This document shows, piece after piece, positions 31,053 through 42,535 of a stretch of DNA of 64,000 nucleotides. The notes beneath the pieces were generated by a model. It had not been told where the DNA came from. It made no database searches and worked only from the letters and a program-made list of their open reading frames with translations. The translations under genes and the position numbers were made by a program. Each line of letters begins with the position of its first letter. The first letter of the stretch is position 1. The stretch spans positions 1-64,000 of the forward strand of contig NZ_ABCT01000006.1 of assembly GCF_000170915.1 (NCBI RefSeq). Reading direction: 5' to 3'. Origin of the DNA: Limnobacter sp. MED105. Lineage in GTDB: Bacteria; Pseudomonadota; Gammaproteobacteria; Burkholderiales; Burkholderiaceae_B.

Positions 31053-31120
31053 GTTCTGGTCGTCTCCTGTCTGGCCAAAGTCCTGATCAAGCTAAAGACT
31101 TCATGCAGCAAGTCTGTTAT

Positions 31121-31137
31121 TGGTATTTTTAATACCA
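31121..31137. promoter_or_regulatory. Candidate TetR operator
   Basis: TGGTATT-ttt-AATACCA, a perfect 7-3-7 dyad, about 70 bp upstream of the tetR start. Position and symmetry fit an autoregulatory TetR site. Confidence 0.5.
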
Positions 31138-31205
31138 TTAGTCTACGTTGTTTTGACAAGTATTTGGGGCTTCACTGCCCTTGTTACCAGTGAGTAATGG
31201 CGTCA

Positions 31206-32459
31206 TTAAGCGGCATTTCTGGTTTTTGCAATCCGTATGTAACGATCAAGTTCATTCAGCGAGTCCTCAAGCTGATCAAATTTGGACACCATTGATCCCG
31301 CACGGGCCGGTTTTTTACTGACCTTGTTACTCAAATGCAGGGTAGGATCTTTTAAAACATCGAGATTCAATTCCAGTCCGTGCCTTGAAAGCCGCTCGGC
31401 CAGATCGTACCGACGTGCCCACAATTCCTCACGGGTGCGTTGGTAAGCATGCTCGCACAAACGGCGTCGGCTGGCGTAACTGAACGGGTTGGTGAAAAAA
31501 AACTCACCATCACCATGTTGGGGTTCAAACAATACAATATCGGCGTTGGGGTAGAGGTGCCCGTAGCGTTCCATGCCGATGTCCATGCGTGAATGGATAA
31601 TAGATCTGAATGTTTGTGACAGCACCAAGGGCAAACCACCTTCATACAGGCGCGAACCGGGCTGGAAAGCCTTGCCCTTGGCGCGGCGGCGATGGTTTTT
31701 GGGGTTCAGCCTGTCATCGTAAGGTACTAGCGGATTCAGACAAATCAGCAGTTCTACGCCTTCCTTCAAAGCGGTGGACGCATGCAGGGTTTTTTTCAGC
31801 GCACCGTCCACATAATGCCGGTTGGCAATACGTGTCGGTGGGAACAGGCCTGGCAGCGATGCGGAGGCCTGAACCGCTTTGGAGATTGGAACATCATCAA
31901 ACCCGGGCATGCCAAAAGGAATCGAATCGCCCGAATCCAGATCAGTGGCCACCAGAATAAGACGGTTGCGCAGGCTTCTGAAATCGTTCGTGCCGCCACC
32001 TTTGGCAATCAGGTCGGCCATCCATTCATGTAATTCGTCACCATTGAACAAACCTGTGGGAATTGCAGCCCCCAAGCGTTCAATGCAACTGACCCATGTG
32101 GCGTCATCGCGCAAAAAATAATCAGAAACAGCGGTGCCCAGTAAACTAGGTACCTTGCGAAGGCGCATCCAGTACTCTTTCCAGGCTGGGCGCAACAAAA
32201 TGGAAGGGTCGAAGGCGAGTTCTTCGGGCTCACCTTCAATAAACAACTTGTAGATTTGATGCGGGGTTAGATCGTGGGCCAGACCGGTTGCAACAATGCC
32301 TCCAGCAGACACGCCCACGTAGACACTCATGTCATTCAGGTCAAGTCCGTCGATGGCCTCGGAGAGTGCTACCAGTGCGCCAATTTCATAAATTGCGCCC
32401 AAGGGGCCGCCACCAGCCAAGGCCAACCCGATCTTCGGGCCAGAGTTGTGATTGTTCAT
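31206..32459 (-). CDS. Patatin-like phospholipase/lipase
   Basis: 417-residue cytoplasmic or membrane-surface lipid acyl hydrolase. Oxyanion motif ALAGGGPLGAIYEIG (about 13-27), nucleophile S51 in GVSAGG, and catalytic D218 in YVDGALKK. The rest contains VATDLDSGDSIPFG and ASASLPGLFPPTRI, as in the family. Ends with a basic helical tail. Start set at the ATG giving MNNHNSGPK; an in-frame TTG eight codons earlier also has context. It sits downstream of the phaI gene, with a hairpin between, within the lipid island; it may release fatty acids from stored or membrane lipid. Confidence 0.88.
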   Translation of the reverse strand: MNNHNSGPKIGLALAGGGPLGAIYEIGALVALSEAIDGLDLNDMSVYVGVSAGGIVATGLAHDLTPHQIYKLFIEGEPEELAFDPSILLRPAWKEYWMRLRKVPSLLGTAVSDYFLRDDATWVSCIERLGAAIPTGLFNGDELHEWMADLIAKGGGTNDFRSLRNRLILVATDLDSGDSIPFGMPGFDDVPISKAVQASASLPGLFPPTRIANRHYVDGALKKTLHASTALKEGVELLICLNPLVPYDDRLNPKNHRRRAKGKAFQPGSRLYEGGLPLVLSQTFRSIIHSRMDIGMERYGHLYPNADIVLFEPQHGDGEFFFTNPFSYASRRRLCEHAYQRTREELWARRYDLAERLSRHGLELNLDVLKDPTLHLSNKVSKKPARAGSMVSKFDQLEDSLNELDRYIRIAKTRNAA

Positions 32460-32490
32460 GCGGGTTGTGAGCTCCAGCCCCAAAGAGTGT

Positions 32491-32530: not shown

Positions 32531-32977
32531 TTACTCAGCAGATTTTTTGGTTCGCGCGGTAGTGCGCTTTGCGGTGGTCGCTTTGGTGTCCACTTTTTTG
32601 CCAGTCAGTTCGGCAATCGCTGCCGACAATTGGTCAATACGTTCAGAAAGCTGCTGAACGTCCTTGTTGGTAGGAACGCCCAGGCGACCCAAGGCACGAG
32701 CAACGCGTTCTTCGAAAACCTGTTCCAGTTTGTCCCAGTGCTGTGTTGCCTTGCTGGATACAGAGCCAGCAAGCTTGCTGACCTTGCCTGTCACTTCAAC
32801 TACTTTTTGATCTGCAAATTTCACGGTTCGCTCCTGAATTTCATGGCCTTCCTTGACCAGGTTTTCCAAAACACGGTTGCTTTCTTCTTGCGCTTTGGTG
32901 ATAGCACCCACGCCTGCTGTCCACAATTGTTGTGCGCTGTCTACGGCGCCTTTGATGGGCTTTTTCTTACCGGCCAT
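32531..32977 (-). CDS. PhaI/PhaF-type granule-associated phasin
   Basis: 148-residue phasin. MAGKKKPIKGAVDSAQQLW, AGVGAITKAQEESNRVLENLVKEG, and a leucine-zipper-like segment (VQQLSERIDQLSAAIAEL) are typical of the PhaF/PhaI family that coats polyester or lipid granules. The tail is basic (TTAKRTTARTKKSAE) and may touch DNA. Start has AAGGAG upstream. It is divergent from the fatty acyl-CoA reductase gene, with about 250 bp between, which is the second granule protein in the window. Confidence 0.88.
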   Translation of the reverse strand: MAGKKKPIKGAVDSAQQLWTAGVGAITKAQEESNRVLENLVKEGHEIQERTVKFADQKVVEVTGKVSKLAGSVSSKATQHWDKLEQVFEERVARALGRLGVPTNKDVQQLSERIDQLSAAIAELTGKKVDTKATTAKRTTARTKKSAE

Positions 32978-33141
32978 GTTGTCTCTCCTTGTGATGGCGA
33001 AATGGCCCGTTGGGGACCGATGCCTTTTTTGTTTATTGTAGTAGTTTATCGAGGCCACACTAGAGAAGGCACACTAAACCCTACCTCGTGTTTTCCCGTA
33101 AGCACGGTGCTGACAAAACATCGTTACAGCCCGCATGGAGT

Positions 33142-33223: not shown

Positions 33224-35209
33224 ATGAATTATTTTGTGACCGGAGCCACTGGCTTCATCGGTAAACGCTTGGTGAAGCGCTTGGTTGAGCAAAAGCGCAA
33301 AGGCACCATTTACTTTCTGATTCGTGAATCAAGCCTGGACAAAGTACCCGAGCTGCAAAAGTATTGGGGTGCCAAAAAAGGACAGTGTGTACCCGTGGTT
33401 GGTGACCTGACCAAACCCAAGCTTGGTTTGAAGGCCGCCGAGATCAAAGAACTGAGCAAAAACATCGCCCATTTCTTTCACCTGGCTGCGATCTATGATC
33501 TGGCTGCTGATGCGGAAAGCCAGCAGGAAACCAATATCAAGGGCACGGAGAATGCTGTGGATCTCGCCAATGCGATTGGCGCAGGCTGCTTTCAGCTAAC
33601 GTCCTCGATCGCGGCTGCCGGTCTGTATGAAGGCATCTTCCGTGAAGACATGTTTGAAGAAGCCGAAAACCTGGATCATCCTTACTTTCGTACCAAGCAC
33701 GATTCTGAAGCGATCGTGCGCAAGAAGATCAAAGGTGCATGGCGTGTGTATCGCCCCGGCTTTGTGGTGGGTGACTCCAAGACTGGTGAGATGGACAAAA
33801 TTGACGGGCCTTACTACCTGTTCAAGTTGATCCAGAAAATGCGCAAGTTGTTACCATCTTGGGTGCCCACAATTGGCATCGAAGGTGGCCGAATCAACAT
33901 TGTGCCTGTCGATTTTGTGGTCAATGCCATGGATTACATTGCGCATCAGCCCGATCTGGACGGCAAGGCTTTTCACCTTGTTGACCCGAGCCCGGGCCGA
34001 ATTGGCGATGTGCTGAACACCTTTGCACGTGCGGCCCATGCGCCAAAAATGGAAATGCGGATTAATGCAGCCATGTTTGGTTTTGTACCTGGTGCGGTGA
34101 AAAAAGGCTTGATGAGCCTGACTCCTGTTCGTCGCATTCGCAACGCCCTGCTGAAAGACCTGGCCTTGCCGGAAGAGGTATTTGGTTACATCAATTGGCC
34201 GACCCGTTACGATTGCCGCCAAACTTTGGCTGTGCTCGATGGCAGTGGCATTGAGTGTCCGCGACTTGAAGATTACGCTTGGGCAATTTGGGATTACTGG
34301 GAGCGTCACCTGGATCCCGATTTGTTCATTGACCGCAGCTTGAACGGCCAGGTGAAAGACAAGGTGGTGCTGATCACGGGTGGTTCATCCGGTATTGGTT
34401 TGGCTGCAGCACAGAAATTTGCAGCCGCTGGCGCAATCACTGTAATTTGTGGTCGTGATGAAGAGAAGCTGGCAGAGGCCAAGGCTTTGGTGAAGGCCGA
34501 CGGTTTTGATCTGCACACCTACTCGGTCGATATTGCTGATATGCAGGATTGCGACCGCTTTGTTGCTCAACTGCTGGCTGACTTCGGTCATGTGGATATT
34601 TTGGTGAACAACGCAGGTCGTTCAATTCGGCGTGGTATTGAAAACAGCTTTGATCGTTTCCATGATCTGGAGCGCACCATGCAGTTGAACTACTTCGGTG
34701 CCTTGCGTGTTACTTACGGTTTACTGCCAAAAATGATGGAGCGCCGAAAAGGCCACGTGGTGAACATTTCATCGATCGGTGTGTTGACCAATGCGCCCCG
34801 TTTCTCAGCCTATGTGGCCTCGAAAGGCGCGCTGGACGCCTGGACGCGTTGTGCTGCTTCCGAGTTCGCCGACTTGAACATCACCTTCACGACCATCAAC
34901 ATGCCGCTGGTGCGTACACCCATGATTGCGCCCACCAAGTTGTACAACAACGTACCAACGCTAAGCCCCGAGCAGGCCGCTGACTTGATTGCGCAGGCGG
35001 TCATTCACAAGCCGGTTCGCATTGCTACGCGCCTGGGTGTATTGGGTCAAGTTATGCATGCGCTGATACCGAAACCAGCTCAAATTTTGATGAACACGTC
35101 TTTCCGCATGTTCCCTGATTCAGAATCTGCTGCGAAAGGCAAGAAGGGTGGTGGTCCATCCGCAGAACAGGTTGCTTTCTCAACCCTCATGCAAGGTATC
35201 CACTTCTAA
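33224..35209 (+). CDS. Two-domain fatty acyl-CoA reductase (alcohol-forming), Marinobacter type
   Basis: 661-residue protein made of two Rossmann domains. N-terminal extended SDR: TGATGFIG (residues 6-13), HLAAIYDL, and YFRTK as the YxxxK pair (Y154, K158). C-terminal classical SDR: TGGSSGIG (about 385-392), NNAG, SSIG, and YVASK (Y530, K534). From memory it matches the Marinobacter enzyme of the same length along both halves, including EDMFEEAENLDHPYFRTKHD, GIEGGRINIVPVDFVV and IRRGIENSFDRFHD. That enzyme reduces fatty acyl-CoA (or acyl-ACP) to the fatty alcohol in two NADPH steps, for wax ester making. Convergent with the alcohol-oxidising operon. Confidence 0.9.
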   Translation: MNYFVTGATGFIGKRLVKRLVEQKRKGTIYFLIRESSLDKVPELQKYWGAKKGQCVPVVGDLTKPKLGLKAAEIKELSKNIAHFFHLAAIYDLAADAESQQETNIKGTENAVDLANAIGAGCFQLTSSIAAAGLYEGIFREDMFEEAENLDHPYFRTKHDSEAIVRKKIKGAWRVYRPGFVVGDSKTGEMDKIDGPYYLFKLIQKMRKLLPSWVPTIGIEGGRINIVPVDFVVNAMDYIAHQPDLDGKAFHLVDPSPGRIGDVLNTFARAAHAPKMEMRINAAMFGFVPGAVKKGLMSLTPVRRIRNALLKDLALPEEVFGYINWPTRYDCRQTLAVLDGSGIECPRLEDYAWAIWDYWERHLDPDLFIDRSLNGQVKDKVVLITGGSSGIGLAAAQKFAAAGAITVICGRDEEKLAEAKALVKADGFDLHTYSVDIADMQDCDRFVAQLLADFGHVDILVNNAGRSIRRGIENSFDRFHDLERTMQLNYFGALRVTYGLLPKMMERRKGHVVNISSIGVLTNAPRFSAYVASKGALDAWTRCAASEFADLNITFTTINMPLVRTPMIAPTKLYNNVPTLSPEQAADLIAQAVIHKPVRIATRLGVLGQVMHALIPKPAQILMNTSFRMFPDSESAAKGKKGGGPSAEQVAFSTLMQGIHF

Positions 35210-35218
35210 GCAATCCGC

Positions 35219-36229
35219 TTAGGCTCGGTTTTCTGCCAAGGGGTAGGCCTGTGCATCTTCTGCAAGCCAGTTGAGAATCAGGTCTTCCGTGGTGGAGTCG
35301 TTCAGCAAAGCCACGTGCCCGCAACCGGGCACGGCGGTGTTTTTTCCAAACTCCAGTTTGCTGGATACTGGTGGGCACACAATGTTGTCTTGTGGGCTCC
35401 ACAGTGACCAAATCTTTTGCTGAAACTCTCTGTCGGTGGGGTGCTCTCGCAGCGTTTTCAAGAAGAAACTTCCCCACGCCATTTGTTTCACATTCTTGCC
35501 AATACCCAGGGTAGACAAAGCCGTACCGTAATGCGGGCTGCCAATCGTGATCATGCCCGCAATTCGATGATGACCGTATTCAGTGGCGTGGTAACGCACA
35601 GCCACACCGCCCATGCTGTGCGCAATAATTTTCACTTGGGGTGCGCCAGTGGCCACCAACAATTCGTCGATTGCCTCATGAATCGCTTCAGAGTAACTGC
35701 GAATAGAGCCAATGGCCGGCTCCAGTGTGATGGCGTGGGTACTAACTTCAGCACGGTCAAGCAGGGCGCGGGTACCTGCCCACACAGCCGAATTGCACAA
35801 ATAGCCATGCACCAGCAACACAGGCAAAGGCTTTTTCTTGCGCCAGGTTTTACCAGCCAATTGAATACCGTCAGGGTTGGGGGCCCAGGGTTGCAGCAAC
35901 GTGATCAGTTTGAGCGATGCAATACTTTCAACCAACACTGCTTTAACCCAACGTGCCAGGCTCAGTCGGTGAAACCCTTCACCCTCGGTGCTGTGAAAGT
36001 GCAAGCCCTTGTCCCGCACCTGTGGAATTTGGCGAACGCTGTAGGAAAGGGCAAATCCCGAGATATTGAATCCGACATGCGCCGAGAAAAGAACGCCCAC
36101 CACCAGGCAAATGGCAGCCACGGCGGCATTGTCACTTCTAGCACCAAACCAGTGATGAAGAAGCCAGTACAGGCCGAACATGACTGAAATGTAGCCAATC
36201 CAGTACAGTCTGTTCAGGTGGCGAATCAT
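35219..36229 (-). CDS. Membrane-anchored alpha/beta hydrolase
   Basis: 336-residue lipase/esterase-like protein. Two N-terminal transmembrane helices (about 9-26 and 34-52), then an alpha/beta hydrolase: VLLVHGYLCNSAVW, nucleophile S205 in AHSMGGVAVRYHA, ITIGSPHYGT, and CGHVALLND with the catalytic His. The GTA and HGYL motifs recall triacylglycerol lipases. Last gene of the operon (5 bp after the GMC gene). It could hydrolyse wax or steryl esters to feed the alcohol oxidation genes; that link is by position only. Confidence 0.83.
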   Translation of the reverse strand: MIRHLNRLYWIGYISVMFGLYWLLHHWFGARSDNAAVAAICLVVGVLFSAHVGFNISGFALSYSVRQIPQVRDKGLHFHSTEGEGFHRLSLARWVKAVLVESIASLKLITLLQPWAPNPDGIQLAGKTWRKKKPLPVLLVHGYLCNSAVWAGTRALLDRAEVSTHAITLEPAIGSIRSYSEAIHEAIDELLVATGAPQVKIIAHSMGGVAVRYHATEYGHHRIAGMITIGSPHYGTALSTLGIGKNVKQMAWGSFFLKTLREHPTDREFQQKIWSLWSPQDNIVCPPVSSKLEFGKNTAVPGCGHVALLNDSTTEDLILNWLAEDAQAYPLAENRA

Positions 36230-36234
36230 GCTCT

Positions 36235-37878
36235 TTAAGCCAGTGCGGTGGCGGCCTGGCCAGTCAGTTCTGCGACCAGTTGCTGGCTTAGTTTGTTGGT
36301 CAGGCCATAAATAGACAGTTGAGGATTGGCACCAATGCTGGTCGGAAATAGCGAGCCGTCGTGAATGGACAGGTTTTCGATTTGCCAGTGGCGACCATCC
36401 GGGCGCGCAACGCCCAGCTTTTCCTCACCAGCCATGGCGCACCCACCCATCACGTGGGCGGAAACCACTTTCATGCTCAGCGGTTTCATGTCAAGCGCGT
36501 TGATCTGCTTTAGGGCTTCGTCAATATTGTTGGCAGGCTTGGAAAACTCATGCACAGGCAGCGTGCTGAGCGCACCTGCAGCGTGTTGCAACTCAGCCAT
36601 GGCGACCAAGGCACGGCGTGCCGCATCCCAAATTGCCGGGGTTAGCTTGTAGTCCAGCACCGGGCTGCCGTCGCTGTTCAAGCGCACTTGCCCGCCCACA
36701 CTGCCGGAATTGAAACCATCGCGCAGCAAAGCCAGTTGCATGTGCGTTTTCGAGAAATTCTTCATGATGTCGGCATGCTTTTTTGCAAAGCCTGGCAGGG
36801 TCGAGGCAAAAATTACGGGGTGCAGGGGTGGTGCCTCAAGTTTGAAGCCGACAGGTCCGTCAATCGGATCCGTGTGCAAATAATGGTCGCTGTAAATGGT
36901 TTGGGGCGCGCCTGCATCTGCGCGAACTTCCTGCTCCATCATGGCAGCTGAAATGACCACAGGGTGCAAAAAGGTACGTTCGCCCAAGCGGTCATAGGGG
37001 TCGGTCGCATTTGAACGTAGCAGCACGGCCGGGCTATTGATTGATCCGCCAGCCAATACAAAATGCCTGGCTGTGATTTCCACTTCTTTGCCTGAAGGCA
37101 GTACACCGTCGGCATTCATGACCTGGCAGCGCAGGGTGCGGATTCGACCTTGAGAAATCTTGAAAGAATGGGCACGCAAGGAAGCGATCAGCTCTGCACC
37201 GTGATCAAGCGCAGCGGGAATGGTTGAAACTAGCATGGATTGCTTGGCATTGGTCGGGCAACCCATGCCGCAGTAGCCAAGGTTCCAGCAGTCTTTTACA
37301 TTGCGTCGAATTGCACCCCAGGAAATTCCTTTGGCTTCTGCGCCACGGCGCAGAATGTCGTTGTTTTCATTCGGTGGCACTTGCCAGTCGGCAATGTTCA
37401 AGCGTCTTTCTGCTTGTTCAAACCACGGGGCCATGGCTTCCACGGTCATGTCTTTCAGAGCAAACTGGTTTTGCCAGAATGCCAGCGTGTCGGCCGGGGT
37501 CCTGAAGCTCGATGTCCAGTTTACGGTGGTGGAACCGCCCACTGTGCGACCCTGCAGAATGTTGATGGCTTTGTCAGCTGTTTTGCGGCCAGCGCTTTCC
37601 TGGTACAGCGTGGGATAGGCCACGGATTCCAGCATTTTGAAATCTTTTGAAGTCTTTAGCGGACCTTCCTCGATCAACAACACCTTCAAGCCTGCCTTGG
37701 CGCATATTTCAGCGGTAATGCCGCCACCCGCGCCGGTGCCAACGATGACTACATCGGCACTCATTTGCTTGGGCATTTCGCGCTTGTGTGCCTCATAGGC
37801 TTTCCAGCCGTTTGCGATGCCGACTGCAAAAAGGTCGGGCACTAAGGAACCCATGGGTTTGATTTCTTGTTCAATCAT
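36235..37878 (-). CDS. GMC-family FAD oxidoreductase, long-chain alcohol oxidase-like
   Basis: 547-residue FAD enzyme. N-terminal dinucleotide fold VVIVGTGAGGGITAEICAKAG (about 43-63), GRTVGGSTTVNW, a cysteine-rich NLGYCGMGCPTNAKQSM, and the C-terminal substrate side SAHVMGGCAM and HDGSLFPTSIGANPQLSIYGL. It resembles plant and yeast long-chain fatty alcohol oxidases and gluconate-2-dehydrogenase-type GMC subunits. It should oxidise an alcohol to an aldehyde with quinone or oxygen as acceptor. It has no signal peptide of its own, but its partner upstream has a Tat signal. GMC type is certain; substrate inferred. Confidence 0.87.
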   Translation of the reverse strand: MIEQEIKPMGSLVPDLFAVGIANGWKAYEAHKREMPKQMSADVVIVGTGAGGGITAEICAKAGLKVLLIEEGPLKTSKDFKMLESVAYPTLYQESAGRKTADKAINILQGRTVGGSTTVNWTSSFRTPADTLAFWQNQFALKDMTVEAMAPWFEQAERRLNIADWQVPPNENNDILRRGAEAKGISWGAIRRNVKDCWNLGYCGMGCPTNAKQSMLVSTIPAALDHGAELIASLRAHSFKISQGRIRTLRCQVMNADGVLPSGKEVEITARHFVLAGGSINSPAVLLRSNATDPYDRLGERTFLHPVVISAAMMEQEVRADAGAPQTIYSDHYLHTDPIDGPVGFKLEAPPLHPVIFASTLPGFAKKHADIMKNFSKTHMQLALLRDGFNSGSVGGQVRLNSDGSPVLDYKLTPAIWDAARRALVAMAELQHAAGALSTLPVHEFSKPANNIDEALKQINALDMKPLSMKVVSAHVMGGCAMAGEEKLGVARPDGRHWQIENLSIHDGSLFPTSIGANPQLSIYGLTNKLSQQLVAELTGQAATALA

Positions 37879-37893: not shown

Positions 37894-38409
37894 TCAGAGA
37901 ACTTGGAAAGGCGGGCCGGGGTAGCCCATGTCGGCCCACTGCTCGGGCAGTCCGTACCAGCCAGCCATCATCAGGTCGTGAAGTGCATGGTAGCCGGGTT
38001 GAAGGGCTGGAATGGGGTGATCCCGGAAAGACACCAAAAAGGCTTGCACCTGGGCTGGTGTCGCTTGTTCCCAGCTGGTACCCAAATCGGCAATCAGTCT
38101 TCGACCAACCGGGTTCTCGAGAATATTCAGCAGTTGACCCAACTCTGCTTGTGCGCTGGCTGCGAGAGTTTTGGTGGCATCTACGAATGCATTCACGGCC
38201 GATTCAATGGATTGCGTTCTTCCTGTGGTGGGTAATGCCGGATCCAGCAGACCTTCGGCGATGGCCTTCAGCATCGGTATGTGCTGTTGTTGCACCACAG
38301 ACTGACCTGCGACCACCTCCACCTTGGCAAAGTGTTTGCCCAACCAACTCAGGCCGCCGGCCAACAGCAGGCCGGCAGCACCGAATTTAAAAAATTGACG
38401 TCTGTTCAT
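37894..38409 (-). CDS. Tat-signal small subunit (gluconate 2-dehydrogenase subunit 3-like)
   Basis: 171-residue protein with a twin-arginine signal: MNRRQFFKFGAAGLLLAGGL. The mature part is helical, with LKAIAEGLLDP near its start, QLLNILENPVGRRL, and YHALHDLMMAGWYGLPEQW, matching the small gamma subunit of GMC dehydrogenases. Such subunits carry the flavin subunit through the Tat pore. It precedes the GMC gene by 15 bp and follows the aldehyde dehydrogenase gene by 11 bp. No cytochrome c subunit is present here. Confidence 0.8.
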   Translation of the reverse strand: MNRRQFFKFGAAGLLLAGGLSWLGKHFAKVEVVAGQSVVQQQHIPMLKAIAEGLLDPALPTTGRTQSIESAVNAFVDATKTLAASAQAELGQLLNILENPVGRRLIADLGTSWEQATPAQVQAFLVSFRDHPIPALQPGYHALHDLMMAGWYGLPEQWADMGYPGPPFQVL

Positions 38410-38420
38410 GAAGCTTCTGT

Positions 38421-39875
38421 TTATACCTTGCGGGTCAGCAGTTTGGTCATGAAGGCAAACATTTTGTTGTCATAGGGTGGCGACAACATTTCCATGACAT
38501 GGAAACGGCTTTGTTTAAAAATCGGCTTCAATTTGGTCATGGTGTCAAAACCAAACTTGCCATGGTAATGGCCCATACCCGAGTCGCCAACGCCGCCAAA
38601 TGGCAGATTTTCCTGAGCAATATGAAACAGGGTTTCATTCAGGCATACACCACCGGCGATTGTTTGCTTCATCACCATGTCTTGGGTTTTTGATTCATCG
38701 TCGAACAAATACAAAGCCAGTGGGCGAGGGCGGTCGTTGATGTAATCAAGCGCCTCATCCAGTCGTTTGTAGGTGATCACCGGCAACACGGGGCCAAAAA
38801 TCTCTTCCTGCATCAGCATGGAATCGGGCTTGGCGTTGAACACCAAAGTCATTGGAATTTTACGGCCCGGGCTGTCAGCAGTTTTCATGAGTGTTACCAC
38901 ACGCGCACCTTGTTCCGCCGCTTCGTCAATTAAACGCTGTAAGCGGGTGGCATGGCGGTCAGAAACAATACCGGTGAAGTCCTTGGACAGTATTCCCTCC
39001 GGGAAACGGCGATCAATAATGGCCTTGGCGTGTGAAATCAATTGCTCTTCGCAACCTTCCGGAACCATCAGGTAGTCGGGTGCAATACAGGTTTGCCCGG
39101 CATTGATCGACTTGCCAGACAATGTGCGTGCAATCGCATTTTCGAAGCGGCCCGGGTTGGCCACCGTGGGCGCGGTGATGATTACAGGGCTTTTGCCGCC
39201 CAGTTCAAGTGTTACCGGCACCAGGTTTTCACTGGCTGCCTTCATGACCATTTTGCCCACTGGAGTTGAGCCGGTGAACAGCAAATGGTCGAATGGCAGA
39301 CGGGAAAACTCGGCAGCAACCTCTGGGCCACCATTGATGACCTGTACCACCTCGCGGCCCAGGGCTTTGGCCAGCAGCTCGTCAAGCAGCGCGCTGAAGC
39401 GGGGGGTGTACTCGCTCATTTTGATAAAAACACGATTGCCTGCGGTCAACGCGGCAATCATAGGGCCGATAGACAAAAACAAAGGGTAATTCCAGGGCAC
39501 GATAACGCCCACCACGCCCAAAGGCTGTGGCATCAGGCAGGTGCTGGCCGGCTTGAACCAAATGCTGGCGCCTTCATTGCGAGGCTTCATCCAGCCTTTA
39601 CCGTGTTTGATGGCGTGGCGAATGCCTTCCAGTGAGGGGAATACTTCTGCCAACAAGGTGTCATTTTTTGAGCGGTAGCCGAAGTCCTCTGAAATGGCTT
39701 CAGCAATTCTCAGCTTGTTGTCGTAAATCATGTCGCTCAACGCCATTAGCCAGGCTTTGCGCTGGCTCCATTCCGGGAAGGGGTTGATGCGGTAAGCTTG
39801 CTTCAAGGACTCCAAAGTTGCTTTTAGTTCTGCTGCTGTCAATTCTTGGCCGTGTGCTTTGGATGGGGCGTTCAT
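38421..39875 (-). CDS. Aldehyde dehydrogenase, coniferyl-aldehyde-dehydrogenase-like
   Basis: 484-residue NAD(P)-dependent ALDH of the class often called coniferyl aldehyde dehydrogenase, which also includes long-chain aldehyde enzymes. PWNYP (N129), LELGGKSP with E224, and catalytic C263 in NAGQTCIAPDY, plus EEIFGPVLPV. C-terminal FKQSRFHVMEMLSPPYDNKMF then a basic KLLTRKV that may touch membranes, as in fatty aldehyde dehydrogenases. Start is the ATG giving MNAPSKAHG with GGAGAG upstream; a further start 14 codons earlier has no site. First gene of the operon with the GMC subunits; likely oxidises the aldehyde they make. Confidence 0.9.
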   Translation of the reverse strand: MNAPSKAHGQELTAAELKATLESLKQAYRINPFPEWSQRKAWLMALSDMIYDNKLRIAEAISEDFGYRSKNDTLLAEVFPSLEGIRHAIKHGKGWMKPRNEGASIWFKPASTCLMPQPLGVVGVIVPWNYPLFLSIGPMIAALTAGNRVFIKMSEYTPRFSALLDELLAKALGREVVQVINGGPEVAAEFSRLPFDHLLFTGSTPVGKMVMKAASENLVPVTLELGGKSPVIITAPTVANPGRFENAIARTLSGKSINAGQTCIAPDYLMVPEGCEEQLISHAKAIIDRRFPEGILSKDFTGIVSDRHATRLQRLIDEAAEQGARVVTLMKTADSPGRKIPMTLVFNAKPDSMLMQEEIFGPVLPVITYKRLDEALDYINDRPRPLALYLFDDESKTQDMVMKQTIAGGVCLNETLFHIAQENLPFGGVGDSGMGHYHGKFGFDTMTKLKPIFKQSRFHVMEMLSPPYDNKMFAFMTKLLTRKV

Positions 39876-40003
39876 TGTTGTCTCACTCTCCGGTTTAACA
39901 TTAACGGATGTAAACATAAATTTTGACTATTTTCCATGTCTGATTTGTGCTGCTGTGCAGCAAACGACGTGGAGCTTTACCATTCAACTGCAATTGAATC
40001 GCC

Positions 40004-40711
40004 ATGATTGATATTCAAAGTTCACCCCTGGAGTTACAAAAAGCCATCACGGCCCTTCGACAAGGACAGGGGCGTACTGCTGAATTTTTGAGATTAAAAA
40101 ACGAGATAAAAGTATTTCAAAACAGTAGATTGGAAAGTACATATAAGGATTTGCTTGAAGACAAGGGCATGCGTGCAGCCTGTCGTTTTTTCCTAGATCA
40201 GCTCTATTGCACCCACGATGTCAGCACGAGGGACCATCAAGTAGAAAGAGTGCTGCCCAAGCTGGAGAAATTGCTGCCCGGTGGCGCGGTAGATACGGTC
40301 AAAAAAGTGATTTATATGGATTATCTCGCCGAGCTTCTAGATGATGAAATAACACTTTTTATCAATGAGAAAGACTTTAATTCTGATAATTCACTTAAAG
40401 AAATTGCCTACATGGAGGCCTTCAGAAAACAGGGGCAATTCGACTTGCGGGAGCAGCAAATTCTGTTGGTTCGAGAGGTGGGTGAATCCTTGCGCAAGTT
40501 GATGCGCCTGCCGTTTTTACGGCCACTGATGAAGATGACACGTGGTGCAGCGCAAAAGGCGAATTTAGAGGATTTCCACGATTTTCTAAGCCAAGGGCTG
40601 GATGCCTTTGCCTCGCTCGAGAGGCCAACCCTGTTTTTCCAGTTGATTCAAGAACGTGAAATGTCCATTCTGGAAGGGATTCGACAAGGAACCTTGTCGA
40701 AATTTCCTTGA
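40004..40711 (+). CDS. Conserved helical protein of unknown function
   Basis: 235-residue soluble, mostly helical protein; I do not recognise a named family with certainty. A distinctive patch is MRAACRFFLDQLYCTHDVST followed by RDHQVERVLPKLEKLLPG, with arginines and aspartates that look conserved. No signal peptide, membrane helix, or nucleotide motif. It is divergent from the aldehyde dehydrogenase (128-bp gap) and lies just ahead of the fadD-type ligase, so a lipid-related accessory role is possible. Its first part is AT-richer than its neighbours. Start is the first ATG; the ribosome site is poor. Confidence 0.65.
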   Translation: MIDIQSSPLELQKAITALRQGQGRTAEFLRLKNEIKVFQNSRLESTYKDLLEDKGMRAACRFFLDQLYCTHDVSTRDHQVERVLPKLEKLLPGGAVDTVKKVIYMDYLAELLDDEITLFINEKDFNSDNSLKEIAYMEAFRKQGQFDLREQQILLVREVGESLRKLMRLPFLRPLMKMTRGAAQKANLEDFHDFLSQGLDAFASLERPTLFFQLIQEREMSILEGIRQGTLSKFP

Positions 40712-40843: not shown

Positions 40844-42535
40844 GTGACAGATAAAGCCTGGATTCAGAGCTACCCACCGGGCGTACCTACGTCGGTTGAT
40901 TTGGATCAGTACCCCTCTATTCGGGATATTTTTGAGGACGCAAGTCGCAAGTTCGCCGATAAAACCGCATTCAGCAACATGGGTACAGCGCTGACCTACG
41001 AGCGCTTGGATTCTTTGACCCGTGATTTCGGTGCCTACCTTCAAAGCTTGCCCGGCATGAAAAAAGGCGACCGTGTCGCCTTCATGATGCCCAATCTGCT
41101 GCAATACCCTGTGGCCATGCTTGGCGCAATTCGCGCTGGCTTTGTGGCCGTGAATGTGAATCCGCTTTACACACCCACGGAGCTGGAACACCAGCTGCGG
41201 GATTCTGGTGCCAAGGTGATCGTGGTGTTCGAGAATGTGGCCCACACGCTCGAAAAAGTGATCAAAAACACCCCGGTTGAGCACATCGTGCTGGCCTCAA
41301 TGGGTGAAATGCACGGTTTCTTCAAGCGCGTGTTGCTGAATTTTGTAGTGCGATATGTCAAGAAGTTGGTGCCCGCGTTCAACATTGCCGGGGCCATTAC
41401 CTTCAAGAAAGCCTTGGCACAAGGGCGCAACAATGAGCTACGCAAGGTCAATATTACCCACGATGATCTTGCGTTTCTGCAGTACACAGGTGGTACCACT
41501 GGTGTCGCCAAAGGTGCCATGTTGACTCATGGCAATATTGTGGCCAACTTGCAGCAGGCTTCAAGCTGGTTGAACCAGGACATCGAAGAAGGCAAGGAAA
41601 TTGCGATTACTGCGCTGCCGATGTACCACATCTTTTGTCTGACAGCGAACATTCTGGTGTTCATCAAGGTGGGCGGGCATTGCCTGCTGATTACCGATCC
41701 ACGCAACATGAAAACCTTTGTGAAAACTCTGGGCGCAGTGCCTTTCACGGCTTTGACCGGCGTGAATACCCTGTTCAACGGCCTGTTGAATACACCTGGG
41801 TTCGAGCAGGTTGATTTTTCGCATGTGAAGCTGGTGCTGGGTGGTGGTGCTGCCATTGAACCCGCCGTGGCCGACCGGTGGAAGAAAGTGACAGGCACCA
41901 GGCTGTCCGAGGCCTATGGTTTAACCGAGGCTTCGCCGGCCGTGTGTATCAATCCTTTACACGAGGAGTACAACGGATCGATTGGTTTGCCTGTGCCATC
42001 GACGGAAGTCACTATTCGCGACGACGATTTCAATGAGTTGCCGGTGGGGCAGGAAGGCGAGTTGTGTGTGAAAGGCCCGCAGGTCATGCGCGGTTACTGG
42101 AACAAGCCACGCGAAACTGCTGAAATTCTGACGCAGGATGGCTGGTTAAAGACCGGCGATATCGCCTACATGGATGAAAACGGCTACTTTTACATCACCG
42201 ATCGCAAGAAGGACATGATTCTGGTCTCGGGCTTCAATGTGTACCCCAAAGAGATTGAGGCCGTGGCAACGCTGCTTGGCGGTATTTTTGAAGCAGCTGC
42301 TGTTGGTGTACCCGACAGCAAAACCGGTGAGGCCGTGAAGCTGTTTGTGGTTAAAAAAGACCCGGATCTAACGGCGGAGCAGGTCATTGAACACTGTCGT
42401 AAACACATGACGGCTTACAAAATTCCACGTCACGTGGAATTCATGAAAGAGCTGCCCAAAAGCCCGGTTGGCAAAGTATTGCGCCGAGAGCTTCGCGACA
42501 TGGAAAAAAAGCGCTTGCAAGACCAAGCCAGCTGA
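40844..42535 (+). CDS. fadD: Long-chain fatty acid-CoA ligase (FadD-like)
   Basis: 563-residue AMP-forming ligase. P-loop YTGGTTGVAKGAMLTHGN, EAYGLTEASP, a GWLKTGDIAYMDENGYFYITDRKKDMI stretch (about 430-457), and PKSPVGKVLRRELRD with the catalytic Lys. It activates free fatty acids to acyl-CoA at the inner membrane face. GTG start with a perfect AAGGAG-type site eight bases upstream. Very close to E. coli FadD (561 aa). It stands at the end of the lipid island, where it would refeed acids made by the aldehyde dehydrogenase into acyl-CoA. Confidence 0.95.
   Translation: MTDKAWIQSYPPGVPTSVDLDQYPSIRDIFEDASRKFADKTAFSNMGTALTYERLDSLTRDFGAYLQSLPGMKKGDRVAFMMPNLLQYPVAMLGAIRAGFVAVNVNPLYTPTELEHQLRDSGAKVIVVFENVAHTLEKVIKNTPVEHIVLASMGEMHGFFKRVLLNFVVRYVKKLVPAFNIAGAITFKKALAQGRNNELRKVNITHDDLAFLQYTGGTTGVAKGAMLTHGNIVANLQQASSWLNQDIEEGKEIAITALPMYHIFCLTANILVFIKVGGHCLLITDPRNMKTFVKTLGAVPFTALTGVNTLFNGLLNTPGFEQVDFSHVKLVLGGGAAIEPAVADRWKKVTGTRLSEAYGLTEASPAVCINPLHEEYNGSIGLPVPSTEVTIRDDDFNELPVGQEGELCVKGPQVMRGYWNKPRETAEILTQDGWLKTGDIAYMDENGYFYITDRKKDMILVSGFNVYPKEIEAVATLLGGIFEAAAVGVPDSKTGEAVKLFVVKKDPDLTAEQVIEHCRKHMTAYKIPRHVEFMKELPKSPVGKVLRRELRDMEKKRLQDQAS

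Follow-up and report, generated by a model that had tools for sequence, protein, structure and literature searches.

A probable Maqu_2507-type fatty acyl-CoA reductase within a putative neutral-lipid island of Limnobacter

The window, i.e., the whole stretch of 64,000 nucleotides of Limnobacter sp. MED105 DNA analysed here, contains a reductase gene whose frame is intact as read, with an ATG start and one stop at its end, and which is flanked on both sides by the genes listed in Table 1. The genes for the acyl-CoA-binding protein (ACBP), the TetR regulator, the patatin-like protein and the phasin lie in this order on the minus strand, and the reductase is encoded divergently from the phasin, on the plus strand. 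PF00887 has a single match in the genome, namely this ACBP, and the phasin is likewise present in a single copy (PF05597). The phasin start, ATG at 32977 behind AAGGAG, was picked by eye in an open frame that extends to 33058, and the protein scored 94.8 bits against TIGR01837, for which the cut-off is 94.7. The part that the patatin-like protein may play in the island is putative.

Table 1. Features of the reductase island and their coordinates in the window
Feature	Coordinates	Strand	Support or remark
ACBP, 84 aa	30111..30365	-	PF00887, E 3.6e-28
TetR-family regulator, 222 aa	30384..31052	-	PF13972, PF00440
Patatin-like lipase/phospholipase	31206..32483	-	PF01734, 2.1e-25
Phasin PF05597, candidate wax-inclusion coat protein	32531..32977	-	PF05597, 5.5e-39
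Conserved non-coding element ACTAGAGAAnnnnnACTAAA	33059..33078		Phasin/reductase intergenic region; in L040-L044
Maqu_2507-type fatty acyl-CoA reductase (PRK07201)	33224..35209	+	661 aa
N half (extended SDR, resembling thioester reductases), residues 1-360	33224..34303	+	NAD_binding_4
C half, residues 376-661, classical SDR	34349..35206	+	adh_short
Alpha/beta hydrolase, candidate ester hydrolase (putative role)	35219..36229	-	PF00561, 1.4e-07
GMC oxidoreductase, LaoA-like long-chain alcohol dehydrogenase	36235..37878	-	PF00732, PF05199; lao-operon gene order
Small LaoB-like protein, twin-arginine N terminus (NRRQFFK, by eye)	37894..38409	-	No match in Pfam or in NCBIfam
Aldehyde dehydrogenase, LaoC-like by position	38421..39917	-	PF00171, 6.2e-81
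FFLEE-family protein	40004..40711	+	NF047641, 192.6 bits, cut-off 55
FadD-like ligase	40844..42535	+	PF00501, 4.1e-95; best NCBIfam models FadD-type, each under its cut-off

The two halves of the reductase were recognized by Pfam as different domains, residues 5-236 matching NAD_binding_4 (5.1e-45) and residues 380-570 matching adh_short (1e-53). The initial annotation had described 661 residues and two domains, each with a YxxxK and a TGxxGxG motif; the length, the domains and the two YxxxK motifs were borne out, whereas the glycine motifs are actually of two kinds. The N half has TGATGFIG (residues 6-13; 33239-33262) and the C half has TGGSSGIG (residues 385-392; 34376-34399), which we take to be the TGxxGxxG motif of extended SDRs and the TGxxxGxG motif of classical SDRs, respectively. 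The YxxxK of the N half is Y154-F-R-T-K158 (33683-33697), while the C half has N489, S516/S517 and the YxxxK motif Y530-V-A-S-K534 (34811-34825). Residues Y154, K158, N489, Y530 and K534 were invariant in both alignments, of 16 and 25 sequences, and so were Arg34 and Arg411, positions at which a basic residue is presumably frequent in NADPH-preferring SDRs. At the level of the entire protein, residues 1-661 aligned to positions 1-657 of the NCBIfam model PRK07201 (NF005539) with 976.3 bits; since the cut-off is 549 and the alignment runs from end to end, this is no chance match. The N half also matched TIGR01746 (Thioester-redct, 1.4e-33), although under the cut-off of that model. A PF07993 profile search of the genome, directed at further fatty-alcohol reductases, returned seven matches, of which the reductase gene was the first (157.3 bits) and a 362-aa frame the next (57.7 bits). 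The predicted structure of the reductase was of moderate confidence (mean pLDDT 71.5, pTM 0.55), and its top six Foldseek matches were thioester-reductase (R) domains of PKS/NRPS proteins (rmsd 8.3-9.7, TM by query 0.39-0.40); the superposition is poor, so that this resemblance of the N half of the model to thioester-reductase domains offers only a hint. Among 60 of 589 sequence matches with solved structures, none covered both halves as one such protein, the top one being a two-domain hydroxyacyl-CoA dehydrogenase that matched the C half only (97.3 bits).

In agreement with the function first suggested, the best-matching family was the two-domain PRK07201, and neither a single-domain SDR nor a family of other function. 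Two Marinobacter enzymes come into consideration as counterparts, of which Maqu_2507 presumably has the same length as the Limnobacter reductase, and Maqu_2220 is taken by us to have about 513 residues, with one reductase domain followed by a Sterile C-terminal domain. The Sterile domain, PF03015, had no match in the reductase at E 0.001 (Pfam), nor any in the genome, where the same search gave none in control genomes either. A Maqu_2220-type identity was rejected on the two-domain PRK07201 architecture and the lack of a Sterile domain, and the Acr1-type single-domain class was rejected on the presence of the second, N-terminal reductase half. The available text of two papers indeed distinguishes MaFAR (Maqu_2220) from Maqu_2507 (PMC7744569; PMC3522743), and the initial annotation, which had named Maqu_2220, chose the wrong one: the two-domain architecture corresponds to Maqu_2507, and Maqu_2220 is the other Marinobacter enzyme as described there (PMC7744569), which makes fatty alcohol in Marinobacter too, but is a different protein. 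Betaproteobacterial homologues with 59.2% and 58.8% identity to Maqu_2507 are in print (PMC10351704, available text). Named Marinobacter loci were found neither among the best 80 of 578 relatives nor among the plasmid matches. Taking together the family model, the published identities of relatives and a tree that holds no named Marinobacter row, the gene most likely encodes a Maqu_2507-type reductase. Maqu_2507 itself is reported to convert acyl-CoA or acyl-ACP with NADPH to fatty alcohol (PMC7744569, available text, citing Willis 2011). As the Limnobacter protein belongs to the same NCBI family, the same substrate, cofactor and product are expected of it; it differs in belonging to another lineage and in lying inside a phasin-ACBP-lipase island. 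FCR1 (Rv3391) of Mycobacterium tuberculosis, a multi-domain acyl-CoA reductase that is 40% identical to Maqu_2507, is linked to wax esters and, when present in E. coli, yielded both the aldehyde and the alcohol (PMC3522743, available text); it is a distant relative, likened to the Limnobacter reductase only through this published description.

The relatives scan kept the best 80 of 578 as named loci, and is therefore biased towards close kin. The closest among these 80 were in Limnobacter sp. CACIAM 66H1 (98% identity), L. parvus (97%) and L. humi (88%), and the Rhodoferax-labelled loci of the same set (L077, L079, L084, L091, L108, L118) were 67-69% identical. Full-length homologues of 46-62% identity were found in 10 genomes outside the order, and a plasmid search with the reductase returned six records, two of which (Tsukamurella, 40-42% identity) covered at least 80% of it and four of which (Acinetobacter) matched the C half only. 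The reductase exceeded the family cut-off in 40 of the 300 genomes of the order sample (Burkholderiales) and in 12 of the 369 genomes of the class sample; it is thus an ordinary part of the lineage, and the rarity in a betaproteobacterium that had been implied finds no support. In the tree of 45 sequences, the five Limnobacter rows formed one group (support 100), which was nested in a larger one comprising 30 beta rows (support 99). Some reductases of the order branched outside the latter, and a pair from beyond the order (L122, L123) fell between order rows; since the order reductases are not one group, simple vertical descent lacks proof from the tree. It is to be noted that one locus (L042) is a MAG contig labelled Gammaproteobacteria, which holds the Limnobacter island in the same gene order, with a 97% identical reductase; it is probably mislabelled or contaminated. 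The reductase is a well-supported further member of a known enzyme family. Betaproteobacterial copies that adjoin wax-ester-synthase genes have already been published, and its setting is partly in print (PMC10351704, available text). Limnobacter offers a named and cultured genus in which wax-ester storage can be sought; no open-access paper was found that treats both Limnobacter and wax ester.

Co-occurrence with the wax-ester synthase/acyltransferase (WS/DGAT) was pronounced. This enzyme was found in 42 of the 300 order genomes, namely in 39 of the 40 reductase carriers versus 3 of the 260 non-carriers (Fisher p 3e-44, uncorrected for kinship), and at the genus level in 18/18 reductase genera. 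In the nine families that hold both states, it was present in 20/21 carriers and 1/44 non-carriers. The two genes were no more than 12 kb apart in 27 of the 40 carriers. The sole order carrier without a WS/DGAT is a genome of 84% completeness (G052), and three order genomes (G083, G159, G195) have a WS/DGAT without the reductase. Limnobacter sp. MED105 encodes two WS/DGATs, scoring 466.6 and 479.2 bits against TIGR02946 (cut-off 309.95), each with the HHxxxDG motif and both on contigs other than that of the reductase. WS/DGATs can also form triacylglycerol in place of wax. In the class sample, WS/DGAT accompanied the reductase in 10 of 12 carriers; the other two (G310, G508) had no match, and the reductase may therefore have a use without wax synthesis. 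The proposal that the fatty alcohols of this enzyme go into wax esters is strengthened at the genome level by the 39/40 co-occurrence, the two WS/DGATs of the organism itself and the ACBP of the island; as far as sequences can tell, we consider the genomic evidence for a wax-ester role to be strong.

On these grounds, it is highly probable that this Maqu_2507-type reductase makes the fatty alcohol that WS/DGATs would use for wax esters, within a neutral-lipid island that in Limnobacter includes a candidate recovery arm. In the proposed pathway, long-chain acyl-CoA (or acyl-ACP) would be reduced with NADPH to the aldehyde and then to the fatty alcohol, both steps taking place on a single polypeptide that has two reductase sites. 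One of the two WS/DGATs, whose genes lie on other contigs, would then join the alcohol and an acyl-CoA to wax ester. During mobilization of the store, the hydrolase, the Lao-like operon and the nearby FadD-like ligase may return the alcohol to acyl-CoA. The order of reactions from acyl-CoA through aldehyde to alcohol with NADPH is assumed because the characterised family proceeds in this way (PMC7744569, available text). Catalytic activity, the assignment of one step to each half, the accumulation of wax ester and the recovery of alcohol through the Lao-like genes are all predicted.

Around the reductase, the best 80 of 578 loci had a TetR gene in 68/80, a patatin in 60/80, an ACBP in 31/80 and a WS/DGAT in 27/80, contig ends limiting all these counts; ACBP and WS/DGAT occurred together upstream in 26/80. 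The five Limnobacter-like loci (L040-L044) kept the ACBP in the island and not the WS/DGAT, from which we infer that Limnobacter has lost or displaced the WS/DGAT of its own island. One further locus (L074) had the WS/DGAT downstream and no ACBP. Outside the order, among 11 loci of the class sample for which flanks of 1.5 kb were considered, the reductase was adjoined by TetR and ACBP in L121, and by TetR, phasin and FFLEE in L120. Published Burkholderiales scaffolds have a common set of ACBP, ws/dgat and a Maqu_2507-like SDR, with a phasin on another scaffold, which the available text does not treat as a wax protein (PMC10351704). The Limnobacter island differs from those scaffolds in that it lacks the WS/DGAT, keeps the ACBP, and is followed by a Lao-like operon.

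The interest of the island lies in its phasin association and its make-and-recover layout. A phasin, being filed as a PHA-granule protein, is a less expected neighbour for such a reductase. It was present in 78 of the best 80 of 578 loci, and the upstream region of the other two (L098, L105) was unreadable because their sequences begin 11-12 bases before the reductase; of the 78 loci in this set with enough flank, 77 had the phasin divergent from the reductase and within 1.5 kb of it. In the order sample, PF05597 scored above its cut-off in 46/300 genomes and PhaC was found in 203/300. The phasin occurred in all 43 genomes with the reductase or WS/DGAT, versus only 3 (G234, G288, G298) of the 160 PhaC genomes that have neither. 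In the nine mixed families, it was found in 21/21 reductase carriers and in 4/44 non-carriers, even though PhaC is present in 41 of the latter. Within the reductase carriers, it lay no more than 15 kb from the reductase in 34/40, and divergent within 1 kb in 24/40. PF05597, annotated as PHA-specific, thus tracks the wax genes far better than it tracks PHA synthase in this sample.

These distributions allow a tentative proposal, which we advance with reservation, that the Burkholderiales PF05597 phasin is a coat of wax-ester (neutral-lipid) inclusions, and that the island is a module to make, coat and recover the store under one TetR regulator. In such a module, the reductase and the ACBP would supply the acyltransferase, the phasin would coat the inclusion, and the lipases would open the store; the alcohol would then be converted back to acyl-CoA through the Lao-like operon and FadD. 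To our knowledge, little has been learned of the coat proteins of bacterial wax-ester inclusions; a Ralstonia phasin has reportedly been targeted to triacylglycerol inclusions. No proposal of a wax-ester role for a PF05597 phasin was found in the open-access literature, and such a role, if true, would alter the annotation of this family in Burkholderiales. The competing explanation is that PHA storage is the function of the island, with the phasin residing on PHA granules and the reductase being a chance neighbour. The family is indeed named after PHA granules, and the MED105 genome encodes a PHA synthase. Moreover, all 43 order genomes with the reductase or WS/DGAT have PhaC, the phasin occurred in 0/97 genomes without PhaC, and none of the 300 order genomes combined WS/DGAT and phasin without PhaC; the phasin could therefore coat PHA granules, or PHA and wax-ester inclusions alike. 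In addition, a phasin, the family of which is unstated in the available text, ranks among the most highly expressed genes in a Zoogloea for which no wax-ester synthase is predicted (PMC5648520). Nonetheless, a purely PHA-related island with the reductase as bystander appears rather unlikely in view of the above phasin counts, both in PhaC genomes with and without the wax genes and within the mixed families.

On the other side of the reductase, the downstream genes include a Lao-like set, in which the GMC dehydrogenase is encoded in one operon with the small Tat-signal protein and the aldehyde dehydrogenase. LaoABCR of Pseudomonas aeruginosa is a long-chain alcohol oxidation system according to the available text of three papers (PMC6107682, PMC10779009, PMC13291428). 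The Limnobacter operon shares the order of PP_5120-PP_5122 (aldehyde dehydrogenase, small Tat-signal protein, GMC dehydrogenase); the likeness to LaoABCR is one of gene order, and the operon differs in ending in a hydrolase and in adjoining a reductase of opposite chemistry. Its location downstream of the reductase means that the island may combine the making and the recovery of fatty alcohol. A recovery role is put forward conditionally because deletion of the laoAB homologues of Pseudomonas putida left growth on long-chain alcohols unimpaired (PMC13291428, available text). Among the best 80 of 578 loci, the GMC was found in 12/80, the small protein in 11/80, the aldehyde dehydrogenase in 10/80 (far from the reductase in L046) and all three in 7/80; in L. 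humi (L043) and L044, the aldehyde dehydrogenase was present and the GMC and LaoB had no match. The oxidative arm is therefore variable, being patchy across loci and even within Limnobacter. In plasmid searches, LaoB had no match, and the GMC gave 14 records, all of less than 31% identity. The FFLEE protein, whose gene separates that of the aldehyde dehydrogenase from that of the FadD-like ligase, had a homologue in 11 of the best 80 of 578 loci.

The adjoining GMC, Tat partner and aldehyde dehydrogenase could also be taken to mean that the reductase, together with the Lao-like operon, mainly acts in alcohol/aldehyde turnover, in detoxification or in a cofactor-balancing cycle, wax ester being incidental, and the two class-sample carriers without a WS/DGAT match agree with this. 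We regard such a main role as quite unlikely, since WS/DGAT accompanies all but one of the 40 order carriers, and the Lao-like genes are absent from the available flank of most loci, the GMC occurring within 5 kb downstream in only 9 of the 61 loci with that flank (among the best 80 of 578). That the reductase stops at the aldehyde, as Acr1-type enzymes do (PMC3522743, available text), leaving a separate reductase to form the alcohol, is very unlikely: the C half shares 53.6% identity, across residues 376-636, with a stand-alone Acinetobacter SDR from the plasmid search, but the catalytic residues are intact in both halves in both alignments, and the two-domain relative Maqu_2507 is reported to yield alcohol (PMC7744569, available text).

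Lastly, the non-coding sequences of the island were considered. The core of the conserved element between the phasin and the reductase, GGCACACTAAA, occurred with at most one mismatch in 15 of 78 loci (of the best 80 of 578), versus 0.1 expected from base-shuffled copies, and always on the same strand; four of its 15 loci are Limnobacter-like and were the source of its definition. The element near 33059 was missing from the two WS/DGAT loci of the genome. A near-perfect palindrome, TATTGGTATTTTTAATACCATTA, lies upstream of the TetR gene at 31118-31140 and is a candidate operator; the remaining upstream regions of the island had no copy of it. A shared TetR operator was rejected, since the upstream regions of the TetR gene, the phasin/reductase pair and the aldehyde dehydrogenase had no common palindrome or word of at least 10 bases. 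One 9-base word was common to the phasin/reductase and FFLEE-FadD upstream regions.
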